Positions 8,361-21,980 of a stretch of 64,000 nucleotides of DNA are shown one piece after another; the first letter of the stretch is position 1; the number at the start of each line of letters is the position of its first letter. The notes under the pieces were generated by a model that worked only from the letters and a program-made list of their open reading frames with translations, made no database searches and was not told the origin of the DNA. The position numbers and the translations under genes are program-made. The stretch covers positions 62,001 through 126,000 of the forward strand of contig JAYZXF010000006.1 in NCBI GenBank assembly GCA_036141575.1. The letters are read 5' to 3'. This stretch comes from Pseudomonadota bacterium (GTDB taxonomy: Bacteria; Pseudomonadota; Alphaproteobacteria; UBA2136; JAPKEQ01).

Positions 8361-9926
8361 ATGAGCAATACACTCTCTGAACTAAAGCGCCAAGTTGAAG
8401 CACTTGATGATGGCCATGAAGCCAAAGCCATTTTGCAAAACATGCTGGAAACAGCTGCAGGCCTCCCAGAAGACAGCAGAAGCCTGCCTCCTTTGATGAA
8501 AAGGATTGCAGAACTTCTGAGCATCAGCAACGAAACCGACAGTGCCAACGCAGCCCGCCGCAAAGAACTGTTTACCATTCCAGCTTGGATGGTGACTGGA
8601 TCGAGCAAGGTTGCAAGCGCCTTTTCCTGGTGGAAGCAAAACAAGGCCTTTGGCTTTGTCATTGAGAACGGCAAGTTCTCTTTTGCCCCCAAGGAAGTTA
8701 TGGCCCTGCCGGACTACTCCAAACCGGATGTTCGTAACAGAGCCTTGCGTGACGCACCGGATGAAGAAGCTGCACGCGCAGCTGCCGATGCTGTTGAAGC
8801 TGGACACAAGCGCAAACAGGCAGAAGCTGAAAGCAAAGCTGAAAAAGCCCGCCGTGAAGAAGAAAAAGCAAAAGCCCAAGCGGCCAAGCTCTCTTCTGTC
8901 AAGGAAGGCTTGCAAGCTGAACTGGACGCCTCTGAAGCTGATATGCACACGGCCCAGTCTCTGGCAGACCATGAAGCAGCCCTGCTGAGTGAAAGCACCG
9001 AAACCGTTCGCCTTCTTGAAGGTCAGATCGGCGAGATGAACGCTCAGAAAGACGCTGCAGAAAGCAAAACCACGGCAATGACAGAACGCACCAAGCAAAT
9101 GCAAGAGCAACGCGCTCAAGCCAATGCTCGCGTTCCGGAACTGGAAGCACAGCTGAAAGCCCTGCAAACCGCATATGAGCCGGTGAAAGCACGTATGGAC
9201 AGCGCACAAGCTGACTATGACCGCGCAGAAACTGACTTGGGCGGAGTAACGGAACAGATCAACACTTTGCAAACGCAAATTGATGGCCTGAAGTCCGATA
9301 TTGCAACCGGGCAAGAAAAGCATGATGCTTTGCAAGCCCAGACAGCCGAAGCTCTCGACGAAAAAGAGCGCCGCCGTGCTGAAGTATCTGACCTGCTGGC
9401 ACAAATGGAAGCGCTGCGTGAAGAACGCGACGTTGTCACAGCCAGCATTGCTGAAGCCAAAACCGTGCTGAATGCTGCCAAAGCTGAACTGATGCAGGTG
9501 GAAACACCTGAAGATCAAACTCAGTTGTTCCTCATCAACGAGGGCGGCCTTGCAGAAGATGGCACCACTGGCGTCACAGAACTGGCCGTACGTAAGGCAC
9601 GTAATGCCAAACGTAACAGCGCCAAAAATGTTCGCCTTGAAGTGATTGCCGGCGATCTGGAACGTCAACGTGATACTGCATGCCCCGCGGGTGTGGAGTT
9701 CCTCAACCAGCATGGCATTTACCATCCGCTTGTTGGCCAAGGCGATCATGCCGAAGCTTACATGGACGGTGACACTCTGGTGGTACGCGTACAAAGCGCA
9801 TACCCCAAAGCTGCCAAGGTTGACACCAACGAAGACGGTGACAAAGTGCTGCTCATCAGCATGGAAGCTGACCACAGCAATGAAGGCGTGATCGCTCACG
9901 ACTTTACGCTGCAGATAAACCTGTAA
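8361..9926 (+). CDS. Large coiled-coil protein of unknown function
   Basis: 521 residues. Residues 1-135 look globular and end in a Trp-containing segment (FSWWKQNKAFGFVIENGKF). Residues about 140-395 are an almost unbroken Ala/Glu/Lys/Gln coiled coil. Residues 395-521 form a beta-prone C-terminal domain ending DFTLQINL. There is no signal peptide or membrane helix, so it is presumably cytoplasmic and elongated. The gene is clearly richer in G+C than its flanks (over 55% in the stretches I counted) and prefers CTG, GCC and GAA/AAG, a sign of transfer. It has a strong promoter, AAGGAG 7 bases before the start, and a strong hairpin after it; four YbjQ-like genes follow. No family recognised. 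Confidence 0.75.
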   Translation: MSNTLSELKRQVEALDDGHEAKAILQNMLETAAGLPEDSRSLPPLMKRIAELLSISNETDSANAARRKELFTIPAWMVTGSSKVASAFSWWKQNKAFGFVIENGKFSFAPKEVMALPDYSKPDVRNRALRDAPDEEAARAAADAVEAGHKRKQAEAESKAEKARREEEKAKAQAAKLSSVKEGLQAELDASEADMHTAQSLADHEAALLSESTETVRLLEGQIGEMNAQKDAAESKTTAMTERTKQMQEQRAQANARVPELEAQLKALQTAYEPVKARMDSAQADYDRAETDLGGVTEQINTLQTQIDGLKSDIATGQEKHDALQAQTAEALDEKERRRAEVSDLLAQMEALREERDVVTASIAEAKTVLNAAKAELMQVETPEDQTQLFLINEGGLAEDGTTGVTELAVRKARNAKRNSAKNVRLEVIAGDLERQRDTACPAGVEFLNQHGIYHPLVGQGDHAEAYMDGDTLVVRVQSAYPKAAKVDTNEDGDKVLLISMEADHSNEGVIAHDFTLQINL

Positions 9927-9936
9927 AACTGAATCC

Positions 9937-9963
9937 ATCCCCCGCTCAGTTCGAGCGGGGGAT
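9937..9963 (+). terminator. Strong hairpin between the coiled-coil gene and the YbjQ-like genes
   Basis: Perfect 11-bp stem (ATCCCCCGCTC/GAGCGGGGGAT) with a 5-base loop, then TTCTTTT. It is 10 bases after the stop. It should end most transcripts, with possible read-through into the four downstream genes, whose own promoter I could not find in the 35 bases left. Confidence 0.8.
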
Positions 9964-16992: not shown

Positions 16993-18924
16993 TTACTGAC
17001 CGAGCGATCCGTCCAGAAGTGCAAGAACTTGCTGGCCATTTTCTTGACCCTTCAAAATCATTTCTGACGCCGTTTCAAGAATGAGGCTTTGACTCATAAA
17101 GCTGGTCATTTCACGAGAGATATCTGCATCTGCAAGAGTAGATTCAGCCTGCGTTTGGTTTTCAATACTCACAGAAACGAGACCTTCAGCAAAGGCAAGC
17201 CTGTTCATAAAGCTTCCTACATCTGCGCGAGCAGCATTAATGGCATCCATCGCCACACCAATCGCAGTGTGCGCAGCATTGGCTGCTGAAGAACTTTGGA
17301 TATTGGTTTGCGAAAGGTCATACACGACCTTAGCCATTTGTGGAATATCTAGAGCAATGCGATCCACCATATCCGCACCACTTGCAGCCTGAATATTAAT
17401 CTCATCACTATTAAACAGAATCTCTGTAAAGGCGCTACTTGTCAGGTATGCATCTAAATTGACATGGTCTGCTGGAGTAAGCGCATTATTATAGTAAACA
17501 ATCTCTGCAATTTGCCCCGTAAAGTAATCTGTATCTGGAGCTGAAGGCCCGTCATGGTAAATTGTATTATCATTCAAACGGCCCACCCCAATATCACCAG
17601 AGTGAGCAGGCAGAACACCATTAATACCAGCACCAGCCGCAACCTGAACTCCGTTTAAGTAAAGAGCTGTAGTGTTGGTAATATTGTCATATGTTGCTGA
17701 CATAGAATACTGTGAATTTGGTGCAATTGGCGTACTGAGCCACGTCCCATTGGCACCACTTGAACGGTACACACCAAAGTAAAGGTTTCCACCATCAATA
17801 TAAACATTGAGACCATTAACCGTTGAACCCTCTTCCCAAAGGAGTTGACGGGCAGCCACGTTACCGCCAGTGGCAAAGCTCATCGCAACACTTTTTTGCT
17901 GGTGGGCATTAATGTTAATCTCTGCATTATCGCTTAAAATAAAGTTTTCTGTGCCATCAAAGTCAAAAGCATCTCGGCCAAATACGGCACCGTTATCAAT
18001 ATCTGGCTGGCTAGAACCTAGGTTTTGAATAAACGCGTTATTTCCACCGAGTACTGGTGCAAGGTCACCTGCGTTTTGTACACCATTACCTGTTAGCGTT
18101 AGAGGGCTTGCAGCCGCACTCACATGCATAACTAGGTTTGCAATATCACTTGGTACAAAAGTTGTGACACCAACAGTGTTGGCTGCAATGGAAATATCTG
18201 TATTATGTGTTGTTGGATCAAAGCTTACAGTATCGTTAAAATCACCGTTTAACTTAACGGTCATCCCCATTTCACTAAAACGAATGTTCTCAATCGTACC
18301 CGCATCAATATTGGGAAGCTCTACGGTTTGATACCTATCTGTGCGCACATGGTGCATGGTCATAAGGCGTGAATTATGATCGTACGAAATCTCGAAAAAG
18401 TCCCCATCCTGATGAAGTGGGAAATTTGGTTCAACATTATATCCAGCAAACCCGTCATCACTATCTACATCCGCGTCAATAATTCCCATACGGAACTCAG
18501 GCCTCTCTCCAAGAAGAGACCTACCATTAAACTCTGTGCCGCTCACAACGCTATCTAAAGCACCAACCAGTTGCTGGTATTCTAAATCTAAAGCCTGTAG
18601 CTCTTGTGGGCTATTGGTTGAGTTACGCGCAAGCGTACTAATCACTTCCATACGGTTTAACGTATCCGCCATGGTACCAAGCGCACCTTCAGCCATTTGC
18701 ATCATAGATGATCCTTGAAGAAGGTTACTTCTGGCAGATTTTAACGCCTGAATTTCAAGGCTAATCCCTTTAGAGACAGAGAGGGATGCCGCATCTTCTT
18801 TGGCGTTTGGAATACGTGAACCTGAGGACAGTTTTGCAAGCTGAGACGACGCAAGACGAGACGCGCCCTTAAATGCATTAATGGCGCGCATACTGGCAAT
18901 AGAACCGTTTAAACTTCTTACCAT
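16993..18924 (-). CDS. Flagellin with a LamG/concanavalin-like lectin insert (copy 1)
   Basis: 643 residues from ATG at 18924, matching the start of the tandem copy (MVRSLN). Residues 1-150 are a standard flagellin D0/D1 (AINAFKGASRLASSQLAKLS; ELQALDLEYQQLVGALD; GTEFNGRSLLG). The last 110 are the matching D1/D0 (ESTLADADISREMTSF). The large centre, about 300-500, reads like a LamG jelly-roll: FDFDGTENFILSD, YIDGGNLYFGVYRS, ATYDNITNTTALYLNGVQVA, GQIAEIVYYNNALT. The product should be a filament subunit (usual length 270-500) that displays a lectin-type domain. A sigma-54-like promoter lies upstream. The lectin call rests on pattern, not structure. Confidence 0.9.
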   Translation of the reverse strand: MVRSLNGSIASMRAINAFKGASRLASSQLAKLSSGSRIPNAKEDAASLSVSKGISLEIQALKSARSNLLQGSSMMQMAEGALGTMADTLNRMEVISTLARNSTNSPQELQALDLEYQQLVGALDSVVSGTEFNGRSLLGERPEFRMGIIDADVDSDDGFAGYNVEPNFPLHQDGDFFEISYDHNSRLMTMHHVRTDRYQTVELPNIDAGTIENIRFSEMGMTVKLNGDFNDTVSFDPTTHNTDISIAANTVGVTTFVPSDIANLVMHVSAAASPLTLTGNGVQNAGDLAPVLGGNNAFIQNLGSSQPDIDNGAVFGRDAFDFDGTENFILSDNAEININAHQQKSVAMSFATGGNVAARQLLWEEGSTVNGLNVYIDGGNLYFGVYRSSGANGTWLSTPIAPNSQYSMSATYDNITNTTALYLNGVQVAAGAGINGVLPAHSGDIGVGRLNDNTIYHDGPSAPDTDYFTGQIAEIVYYNNALTPADHVNLDAYLTSSAFTEILFNSDEINIQAASGADMVDRIALDIPQMAKVVYDLSQTNIQSSSAANAAHTAIGVAMDAINAARADVGSFMNRLAFAEGLVSVSIENQTQAESTLADADISREMTSFMSQSLILETASEMILKGQENGQQVLALLDGSLGQ

Positions 18925-18970
18925 TTTTCTGTCTCTTGTTACGTTTAGGACATAAGCCCACACAAGAAAC

Positions 18971-18987
18971 ATTCAAAAACCGTGCCG
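18971..18987 (-). promoter_or_regulatory. Sigma-54-like promoter of flagellin copy 1
   Basis: CGGCACGGTTTTTGAAT on the minus strand. It matches the flgE upstream element (TGGCACG-N2-TTTTGAAT) at nearly every base; the -12 dinucleotide is GA instead of GC in both. 47 bases before the flagellin start. Confidence 0.55.
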
Positions 18988-19019
18988 AAAATAAAATTTA
19001 TAGAAAAAGAAAGAAGAAC

Positions 19020-20963
19020 TTAAGCAACCGCACCCAGAGAACCATCAAGCAAGTCGAGCACATACCGCCCACTTTCTTGACTTCTCTGGATCATTGCCGT
19101 TGAAGAATCTAACAGAACACTCTTACTGATAAACTCTGTCATCTCTCTTGCAATATCTGCATCAGATAGAGTTGACTCAGCCTGAGATTGGTTTTCAATA
19201 CTGATAGAGACAACTCCTTCCGCAAATGAGAAGCGATTCATCAAACTCCCTAAATCTGCTCGAGCCTCACTCACTGCATCCATCATAAGACCAATCTGTG
19301 TATGCGCAGCGCCAGCAGCAGAATCACTCAGTACATTTGTCTGCCCAATCAAATAAACCTGCTCTGCAATTTTAGGAATTTCCAAAGAAATACGATCGAC
19401 CATATCCGCTCCAGCGGCAGCTTGAATATCCAGTTCTTCTGTATTAAAGAGGATGTCTGAGAAAACCACATTGTTCATATAACTATCAAGGTCTGCATGC
19501 TCTGTTGCTGTCAGTGCATTATTGTAATAAATAAACTCACCAATACGCCCCGTAAAGAAGTCAGTATTGTTTCCAGAAAGCCCAGAGTGATAAATTGTCG
19601 TCCCGTTAGTACGCCCCATTGCCATACCACCTGAGTGTGAAGGAAACGTTTGACCAGGGCCAAGGCCAGCGCCTGCAGCAACTTGCACACCATTAAGATA
19701 CATGGTTGTTGAGTTTGTGGCTCTATCAAATGTAAAGGAAGCCGTATAATCTGTGCTTGGGTTAATCGCAGTGCTCAACCATGTGCCATTCGCCCCATTA
19801 GAACGATAAATACCAAAATATAACTGCCCGCCATCAATGTAGGCATTCATACCATTTACACCTGCACCCTCTTCCCAAATTAGCTGCGTAGAAGCAACAT
19901 CACCGCCCGTCCTAAATGAAAAGGCAAATGATTTTTGGTCATGAGAAGCCGTATTTAACACAGCATTATTGTTAATTCTAAAGTACTCAGAGCCATCAAA
20001 GTCAAAAGCATCTCGGCCAAATACACCGTTAATTTCTAAATCCGGCCTCTGGCCACCATTGTTTTGGAAAAGATTATTATTACCGCCAGAAGCCGTGTCT
20101 AAATCCCCAACATCACGCACACCATTACCGGTAATGTTCAAGGCACTATCAGCAGCACTGTGATGCACAGCAAGACCGGCAATATCACTTGGCACAAATG
20201 TTGGGGGCGTAATAACGTTCGCACCAATCGTCAACGTGGATGCATTCACAGCAGGATCAATGTCCGCTAAAGGATCAAAGGCATCGTTTAATTTAACCGT
20301 TACGCCCATTTCTGTGAAATCTAAATCTTCAATTGTGCCCGAAGCGATCGCTGGAACATTCAGTGTTTGGTAACGATCCTCACGCACATGATGCAAGGTC
20401 ATTGTGCTGGTTGCACTATCATAAGTCACTTCAAACTGGTCACCATCTTGGTGCAGTGGGAAATTTGGCTTAATGTTGTAACCAACAAACCCATTATCTG
20501 TCGCAATATCAGCTTCAATAATAGACACACGGAATTCTGGCTGCTCGCCCAGCAAACTCCTTCCGTTAAACTCTGTCCCACTTACAATGCTATCCATTGC
20601 ACCAACAAGCTGCTGGTATTCAAGATCAAGCGCCTGAAGCTCAATAGAGCTGTTGGTACTGTTTCTTGCAAGTGTCGCAACCGTTTCCATACGGTTTAAG
20701 ACATCAGTAATATCACCCAGCGCACTATCAGCCATCTGCAACATTGAAGAAGCTTGTAAAAGGTTGTTTCTTGCTGATTTAAGGGCACTAATTTCTAAGC
20801 TGATACCTTTAGAGATAGATAAAGAGGCAACATCTTCTTTTGCGTTTGGAATACGAGACCCAGAAGAAAGCTTCGCCAGCTGCGACGAAGACGCGCGTGA
20901 CGCGTCTCTAAATGCGTTGATTGCACGCATTCCAGATACAGAACTGTTTAAGCTTCTTACCAT
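19020..20963 (-). CDS. Flagellin with a LamG/concanavalin-like lectin insert (copy 2)
   Basis: 647 residues, colinear with copy 1 and similar in every part: N-terminal D0/D1 (1-150), beta-rich centre with FDFDGSEYFRINN, YIDGGQLYFGIYRS, TFDRATNSTTMYLNGVQVA and GRIGEFIYYNNALT, then C-terminal D1/D0 (SIENQSQAESTLSDADIARE). The start is the ATG at 20963; the ribosome site is poor. Ends of the protein are much closer to copy 1 than the loops of the insert, so the ligand site may have diverged. Its upstream region lacks the sigma-54 element of copy 1 and carries a sigma-70-like promoter instead, so the two may be made at different times. Confidence 0.9.
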   Translation of the reverse strand: MVRSLNSSVSGMRAINAFRDASRASSSQLAKLSSGSRIPNAKEDVASLSISKGISLEISALKSARNNLLQASSMLQMADSALGDITDVLNRMETVATLARNSTNSSIELQALDLEYQQLVGAMDSIVSGTEFNGRSLLGEQPEFRVSIIEADIATDNGFVGYNIKPNFPLHQDGDQFEVTYDSATSTMTLHHVREDRYQTLNVPAIASGTIEDLDFTEMGVTVKLNDAFDPLADIDPAVNASTLTIGANVITPPTFVPSDIAGLAVHHSAADSALNITGNGVRDVGDLDTASGGNNNLFQNNGGQRPDLEINGVFGRDAFDFDGSEYFRINNNAVLNTASHDQKSFAFSFRTGGDVASTQLIWEEGAGVNGMNAYIDGGQLYFGIYRSNGANGTWLSTAINPSTDYTASFTFDRATNSTTMYLNGVQVAAGAGLGPGQTFPSHSGGMAMGRTNGTTIYHSGLSGNNTDFFTGRIGEFIYYNNALTATEHADLDSYMNNVVFSDILFNTEELDIQAAAGADMVDRISLEIPKIAEQVYLIGQTNVLSDSAAGAAHTQIGLMMDAVSEARADLGSLMNRFSFAEGVVSISIENQSQAESTLSDADIAREMTEFISKSVLLDSSTAMIQRSQESGRYVLDLLDGSLGAVA

Positions 20964-21066
20964 AATGAGCGGCTACATGCCTTCCTCTATCTATATTGTT
21001 ATACCTCCTACCTGGAGGGTGGATAAGTGCGGCGCAACTTGTACACGAAGCGCAAGGCGCACTTGT

Positions 21067-21094
21067 CCTATACTACTTATGCTAAAGCATGCAA
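21067..21094 (-). promoter_or_regulatory. Sigma-70-like promoter of flagellin copy 2
   Basis: On the minus strand TTGCAT (21094-21089), 16 bases, then TATAGG (21072-21067). Downstream in the leader is a CCTCC/GGAGG hairpin (around 21004-21018). Moderate match only. Confidence 0.35.
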
Positions 21095-21167: not shown

Positions 21168-21980
21168 TTAAGAGTAAAAACGGAACTGGTTTTTACCACC
21201 TTGCTTCGCAGCATACATAGATTCATCTGCGGCATTTAGGACAGCCTCAGCATCGTCACCATCCTCTGGAGCGAATGCAATACCGATACTTGCACCAAGG
21301 CGCACACGGTTTCCGCTAATCCAAATTGGCTGGCCGACAAGCTCAAGAACTTTATTTGCGCGCTGCTCTGCAACTTGACGATTATCAAGGTTTGTCAGAA
21401 CAATGACAAATTCATCACCACCGAGACGGCAAAGAACATCTTCTTCACGCACACAAGCAGACAGGCGGTCAGAAACAACCTGAAGCGCTTCATCACCCAC
21501 ATCGTGACCAAACTTATCGTTAATTGGCTTAAAGCCATCAAGGTCAATAAAGAATGTTACGTATTTCGCTTGGCTCTTTGTCAGACCTTCCATGCGTTGC
21601 ATGAGGAAGCGACGGTTCGCAAGACCTGTTAGAGGATCTTCGTTTGCTTCTTGAACAGCTTTATCTTTGCTGTTTGCAGCAAGCTTACCCACAACTTTTT
21701 GAAGCGTACCAAGCTCATCTTTACGAGTCACATTAATTGGACCCATGTTTTCACCAAATTCAACTTTGTGAATGTATTCGATGATTTCAGAAATATCTTT
21801 GATCATTGAGTTTGCGATCACTTTTGAAAATACAAAAGCTGAGCCAAACATAACAGCAACGGCAAACGCAATGCCAAGAATATGCGGCACGTTACCCGCT
21901 TGTGCAATGCTTGTTCCGATGTAAGCAAAGTTTACTAGCAAACCCACACCAACCATAAATAGAAAGAATCTTGACCACAT
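21168..21980 (-). CDS. Membrane-anchored diguanylate cyclase
   Basis: 270 residues. Two N-terminal membrane helices (about 5-22 and 33-54) are followed by a short HAMP-like linker and a full GGDEF domain (ANEDPLTGLANRR entry). LGGDEF is near residue 185. Unlike the two EamA-like cyclases in this window it keeps the RxxD inhibition site (REED, just before the motif), so product feedback is expected. It probably converts two GTP to c-di-GMP at the inner membrane. It lies upstream of the flagellins on the same strand but is cut off by its own terminator. Confidence 0.92.
   Translation of the reverse strand: MWSRFFLFMVGVGLLVNFAYIGTSIAQAGNVPHILGIAFAVAVMFGSAFVFSKVIANSMIKDISEIIEYIHKVEFGENMGPINVTRKDELGTLQKVVGKLAANSKDKAVQEANEDPLTGLANRRFLMQRMEGLTKSQAKYVTFFIDLDGFKPINDKFGHDVGDEALQVVSDRLSACVREEDVLCRLGGDEFVIVLTNLDNRQVAEQRANKVLELVGQPIWISGNRVRLGASIGIAFAPEDGDDAEAVLNAADESMYAAKQGGKNQFRFYS

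Follow-up and report, generated by a model that had tools for sequence, protein, structure and literature searches.

Introduction

The hypervariable regions of flagellins are known to house whole domains, of which 61 types, peptidases included, have been listed (Eckhard et al., 2017; PMC5595980); Table 1 of that work names 'Sialidase' ten times. In flagellinolysin, a functional domain lies inside the hypervariable region between intact D0/D1 ends, and this arrangement recurs in separate lineages. Here, we describe a similar arrangement in two tandem flagellin genes of an uncultured alphaproteobacterium (assembly GCA_036141575.1; 1.85 Mb in 19 contigs, about 98% completeness), in which the centre of each protein holds a LamG domain. 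The genes lie in a stretch of 64,000 nucleotides (contig JAYZXF010000006.1, positions 62,001 to 126,000), hereafter the window. The likeness to flagellinolysin ends with the nature of the domain: flagellinolysin carries a gluzincin metallopeptidase with activity shown on filaments, whereas the present domain is a LamG jelly-roll known from its sequence and a model, and a Pfam scan of the two proteins gave no peptidase match.

A second parallel is found in Streptococcus sanguinis, where the ConA-like module of PilC binds sialylated glycans and glycosaminoglycans (PMC9934059). There, too, a ConA-like lectin module is grafted onto a filament subunit, and our full-length model recovers the PilC structure (7oa8) as one of its fold matches. 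Nevertheless, there are distinct differences. PilC is a minor pilin located at the tip of a type IV pilus, whereas a LamG flagellin would possibly be repeated along its filament, and the two filament systems are non-homologous. Although domain insertion in flagellin centres is already known, a LamG or lectin insertion is not described in the open-licence literature searched, which yielded no relevant paper joining flagellin with LamG, laminin G domain or lectin domain. The architecture, predicted fold and conservation of the module, set out below, suggest that it probably serves as an adhesin displayed on the filament.

Results

Domain architecture of the two flagellins

LamG flagellin 1 (P0001) and the upstream copy, LamG flagellin 2 (P0002), have the coordinates and sizes given in a preliminary description of this DNA, which agree with the list of open reading frames (ORFs). 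An alternative start of P0001, 16 codons upstream, would give 659 residues; the 643-residue start was taken because it aligns with the paralogue and the orthologues. The parts of the two genes are as follows.

16993 to 18924, minus strand: LamG flagellin 1 (P0001, 643 residues); ORF, Pfam; sister-species orthologue 70% identical
17014 to 17265, minus strand: Flagellin_C of P0001, residues 554-637; PF00700, E = 1.6e-9
17431 to 18171, minus strand: LamG module of P0001, residues ~252-498; PF13385, missing from ordinary flagellins in the alignment, model
18190 to 18507, minus strand: beta-rich D2-like base of P0001, residues 140-245; alignment, strands in the full-length model
18511 to 18900, minus strand: Flagellin_N (D0/D1) of P0001, residues 9-138; PF00669, E = 1.8e-22
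19020 to 20963, minus strand: LamG flagellin 2 (P0002, 647 residues); ORF, Pfam; orthologue L056:3218-5161, LamG 85% identical
19047 to 19295, minus strand: Flagellin_C of P0002, residues 557-639; PF00700, E = 2e-10
19464 to 20210, minus strand: LamG module of P0002, residues ~252-500; PF13385, alignment
20229 to 20546, minus strand: beta-rich D2-like base of P0002, residues 140-245; alignment
20547 to 20933, minus strand: Flagellin_N of P0002, residues 11-139; PF00669, E = 1.6e-21

In both proteins the Pfam scan gives the order Flagellin_N, Laminin_G_3, Flagellin_C. Laminin_G_3 (PF13385) scores 35.3 bits in P0001 (E = 1.6e-8) and 31.8 bits in P0002 (E = 1.8e-7) against a cut-off of 27.6 bits, and because all matches lie above their curated cut-offs, chance resemblance is excluded; the normal flagellin ends claimed in the preliminary description are thereby borne out. 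The motifs that it quoted for the centre (FDFDG, YIDGGNLYFG, LYLNGVQVA and IAEIVYYNNALT) occur exactly in P0001, while P0002 has near matches only (YIDGGQLYFG, MYLNGVQVA and IGEFIYYNNALT). Similarly, the region that it proposed, residues 280-510, does locate the LamG module, although the module begins somewhat further left.

The same genome encodes two ordinary flagellins without LamG, one of 395 residues (contig C9) and one of 386 residues (contig C6), the latter about 10 kb past the end of the window. A fifth, weaker flagellin match, a 306-codon frame, is probably the hook-filament junction protein FlgL, a name that we infer. The ordinary flagellins align with P0001 over residues 1 to ~240 and from ~510 to the end; between these blocks they have 20-25 linker residues, where P0001 has ~270 residues holding LamG. 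The module of about 250 residues is thus a clean insertion that replaces a short linker. The beta-rich, D2-like residues 140-245 are common to P0001, P0002 and the ordinary flagellins, and LamG is therefore carried atop this base. FlhA/FHIPEP, the sole flagellar export component searched for, is present in the genome (E = 6.5e-258), and FlhA was found in four genomes with LamG flagellins.

Fold of the LamG module

The full-length model, built from only six sequences, is mediocre (predicted local distance difference test score, pLDDT, 60.6) and shows the helical ends of a flagellin. The isolated LamG module, modelled from 30 LamG sequences, reached a pLDDT of 89.9 and a predicted template-modelling score (pTM) of 0.87, with 16 strands. 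When the module profile was compared with solved structures, a Limulus SAP-like pentraxin (1.2e-7) and an S-layer LamG domain (2.2e-6) were matched. A fold search with the full-length model returned pentraxins, CBM40-sialyllactose complexes and the lectin pilin PilC, plus flagellins on account of the helical ends. Binding domains of jelly-roll fold, pentraxins and CBM40 among them, thus dominate these fold searches, and the top 50 matches of the isolated module include no flagellin. The top matches of the module were clostridial neurotoxin binding domains (8-17% identity), which we ascribe to the shared jelly-roll fold and to the many such entries in the PDB, and do not read as a sign of function.

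Pfam, profile, model and fold search therefore agree with the preliminary description that both flagellins hold a beta-sandwich of LamG/ConA-like type at the surface position, and similarity was found to pentraxin and S-layer LamG domains rather than only to flagellin D2/D3 domains. A ConA-like jelly-roll resembling pentraxins and CBM40, and not an ordinary D2/D3 domain, is well supported as the predicted fold. Nine positions are invariant in the 30 LamG sequences, which come from several phyla: N337, F350, Q360, E364, G366, G371, H441, F468 and G470 (P0001 numbering). CBM40/sialidase N-terminal domains and pentraxins thus share the fold class with the window modules and match them structurally; unlike in those families, no specific sialic-acid or calcium site is recognizable in the window modules, and PF02973 (CBM40) is absent from P0001 and P0002 up to E = 1 in the Pfam scan.

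Conservation of the module

A sister species of the same genus keeps the LamG flagellin pair in the same setting, with a GGDEF gene upstream and a methylcrotonyl-CoA carboxylase operon downstream in both species. Identity between P0002 and its sister-species orthologue is 88% over the N-terminal core and 85% over LamG, and the ratio of non-synonymous to synonymous substitution rates is 0.05-0.2, a value only indicative of constraint as synonymous sites are saturated. Further away, a separate tandem pair of LamG flagellins, 651 and 656 residues long, is encoded by UBA6503 (L057), which belongs to a different family of the class.

Could the filament be made of the 386- and 395-residue flagellins, with the LamG copies being minor or silent paralogues that are seldom used? 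The genome does hold two ordinary flagellins, the LamG pair lies in a metabolic neighbourhood rather than a flagellar cluster, and the sigma54-like site before P0001 is weak in the sister species, where it scores only 7/12. We nevertheless consider this improbable, given that in two species with the same gene order around the pair neither reading frame is disrupted and both are constrained, and that UBA6503 repeats the whole set of two ordinary flagellins plus a LamG pair.

Flagellin ends are normally the conserved part of the protein. Between the window and UBA6503 flagellins, however, LamG is 42-47% identical and the core 32-34% (Fisher p 0.003-0.05, the pairs being non-independent), so that the usual flagellin pattern is reversed. 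This is the opposite of what would be expected of an antigenic or phage-evasion coat, that is, a bulky, replaceable outer domain that keeps flagellotropic phages or predators from reaching the conserved core. Such a coat predicts a fast-changing centre, whereas LamG changes at about the rate of the core between orthologues and more slowly than it towards UBA6503. In favour of a coat, the outer domains of flagellins generally vary and lie at the surface, and several relatives in the order, with flagellins of 633-769 residues, have large centres that carry no annotation; we nonetheless regard this explanation as very unlikely.

The duplicates cluster by lineage in both the core tree and the LamG tree; the tandem duplications were therefore either independent or homogenized. 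Movement of the UBA6503 LamG into an unrelated flagellin was considered and is unsupported, as the LamG flagellins of UBA6503 and of the window also come together in the core tree (support 76), where both sit on long branches.

Related modules and distribution of LamG flagellins

Related LamG modules are present in RTX and cadherin-type proteins and, within the same genome, in a 1424-residue two-partner-secretion (TPS) exoprotein on contig C17 (L036:5094-9368; PF05860, E = 2.6e-29), which is preceded by its own ShlB/FhaC-type transporter (TpsB; L036:2926-5028). Homology to the flagellin modules covers residues 414-672 of the exoprotein, after the segment LLLDPENITIS (phmmer E = 1.5e-30 to 5.5e-36), but at 31-34% identity this module is more distant than the UBA6503 flagellin modules. 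Recent donation of LamG by this TPS protein is ruled out, because the UBA6503 modules are the closer ones in the LamG tree. A TPS protein of UBA6503 likewise contains LamG-like segments, though in the tree its modules are distant.

A single-sequence scan of the genome contigs with P0001 found no relative, whereas a search with the LamG alignment did. In a class sample of 385 genomes, the LamG model matched in 16, and the flagellins among these belonged to the window genome, UBA6503 and three genomes from a single family that includes Micavibrio. In a phylum sample of 399 genomes, no flagellin was seen outside the window genome among the LamG-match frames examined, which were not all of the matches.

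The Micavibrio-type LamG flagellins (516-540 residues) have weak but recurrent Flagellin_N matches and share both ends with one another, and with paralogues that have no LamG. Their LamG forms a sister pair (support 98) with the LamG of a Micavibrio RTX protein that has a C-type lectin domain, a position that points to a separate capture, by which these flagellins apparently arose. Some of them show weak PF02973 matches, one just above the cut-off, which is a further likeness to CBM40. 'Sialidase' is the Pfam short name of this sialidase N-terminal domain (PF02973), which is lectin-like; some of the ten 'Sialidase' flagellins may therefore carry LamG/CBM40-like modules of the present type. Divergent-ended flagellins, several with LamG and some in tandem, were also observed in the Micavibrio-like genomes L204, L206, L207, L089, L103, L111 and L069, the flagellins of which are scarcely detected by Pfam Flagellin_N/C.

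A Rickettsiales metagenome-assembled genome (IP29b_bin.103) encodes a 1131-residue flagellin (L058:5305-8700) with two LamG modules and calcium-binding RTX repeats, a 649-residue flagellin with a weak LamG trace, and further flagellins of 826 and 939 residues; the LamG tree leaves the placement of its LamG unsettled. Two modules in one subunit could suit a sheath, and the LamG domain may be seen as a structural outer domain, with neighbouring LamGs touching to stiffen or widen the filament for viscous or particle-rich media and with no external ligand. Outer-domain dimerization that tunes motility is documented in other flagellins (PMC8931119, PMC10256154), and packing constraints would equally give high conservation. 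However, related modules are found in proteins that do not polymerize like flagellin (TPS exoprotein, RTX, cadherin-type), and packing alone does not predict that a lectin-type module is captured in separate lineages; we therefore judge a purely structural role unlikely, though worth keeping in mind.

Large flagellins of the order of the window genome (633-769 residues) have no LamG according to Pfam. Among them, those of 744-769 residues (L044:3259-5559, L047:2993-5227 and L052:2812-5121) have large centres without any Pfam match.

Upstream elements and neighbouring features

Three further features were noted around the pair.

18972 to 18987, minus strand: sigma54-like site CGGCACG-N4-TTGAA, 63 nucleotides before the P0001 ATG; 10/12 consensus positions, weak
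21021 to 21068, minus strand: possible leader hairpin upstream of P0002, GGAcAAGTGCG / CGCACTTaTCC; in the sister species GGGAAA / TTTCCC
21168 to 21980, minus strand: GGDEF diguanylate cyclase neighbour; PF00990, E = 1.1e-45, synteny with the sister species

Sigma54-like sites also precede the 386-residue flagellin (11/12 at -62) and a Rickettsiales flagellin (11/12 at -132). The P0002 leader (20964-21068, minus strand), whose hairpin appears compensated in the sister species, also holds a CCTCC/GGAGG hairpin and GGCATGTAGCC near the ATG; compared with Rfam, it matched no family above the gathering score. The sigma54-like site and the structured leader of P0002 may be taken as weak leads for regulation. 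A GGCARGTAGSC-like sequence precedes the 395-residue flagellin and the UBA6503 pair; GGCANGTAGSC was rejected as a flagellar leader element, being mostly background and distinct only ahead of two flagellin genes in this genome. Elsewhere in the window, two open frames of more than 500 codons lie nearly exactly antiparallel in a GC-richer stretch (8361-9926, plus strand, and 8382-9938, minus strand), the plus-strand frame giving no Pfam match.

Discussion

The LamG flagellins are probably ligand-binding, most likely glycan-binding, adhesins displayed along the filament. In line with established flagellin architecture, the subunits would be exported and polymerized through their D0/D1 ends, either by themselves or together with the genome's two ordinary flagellins, and each would expose its LamG domain on the filament surface, on the D2-like base. 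The domains would then form a dense, multivalent ligand-binding array, with glycans on a surface, particle, prey or partner cell as the most likely ligands, and the outcome would be weak, avidity-driven adhesion by a swimming organelle. The algal or particle polysaccharides named in the preliminary description are a guess.

This proposal is favoured because a three-part architecture with matches above cut-off is combined with a clean insertion and a confident jelly-roll with lectin- and pentraxin-type matches; because LamG is more conserved than the core towards UBA6503 and nearly equally conserved between the P0002 orthologues; because related modules belong to surface or adhesin-like proteins (the TPS exoprotein and the Micavibrio RTX protein with its C-type lectin domain); because LamG flagellins recur in separate lineages, with FlhA in four such genomes; and because the analogous lectin module of PilC, on a pilin, binds glycans.

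Several points weigh against it. LamG/ConA-like folds also bind proteins or play structural roles, and to our knowledge most Laminin_G_3 domains are functionally uncharacterized. In the profile alignment, the GQEQD loop with the calcium ligands of pentraxins is not apparent, the aligned positions reading Ggvng. Moreover, 30 LamG sites are fixed differently between the paralogues, 16 in strands, 12 in loops and two in helices; because these differences do not favour loops over strands, they mark out no divergent binding face. P0001 and P0002 are constrained paralogues, which may or may not share their ligand preferences.

More tentatively, and at slightly less than an even chance, lectin flagellins may form a recurrent, unrecognized class in small-genome Alphaproteobacteria, spanning the genus of the window, UBA6503, Micavibrio-like lineages and the Rickettsiales genome. 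LamG would then have been captured independently at least two times from surface proteins and often retained as tandem pairs, and the rotating filament would be a multivalent glycan-binding fibre for catching prey, particles or hosts.

Flagellin centres are usually regarded as variable padding or antigen, and a conserved lectin-type module there departs from that picture. The interest of these flagellins lies in the conservation reversal and the repeated capture, their function being predicted. If the prediction is true, flagellar adhesion would be a built-in binding function, testable on a small soluble domain, and the flagellinolysin idea of functional filaments would be extended from enzymes to binding modules.

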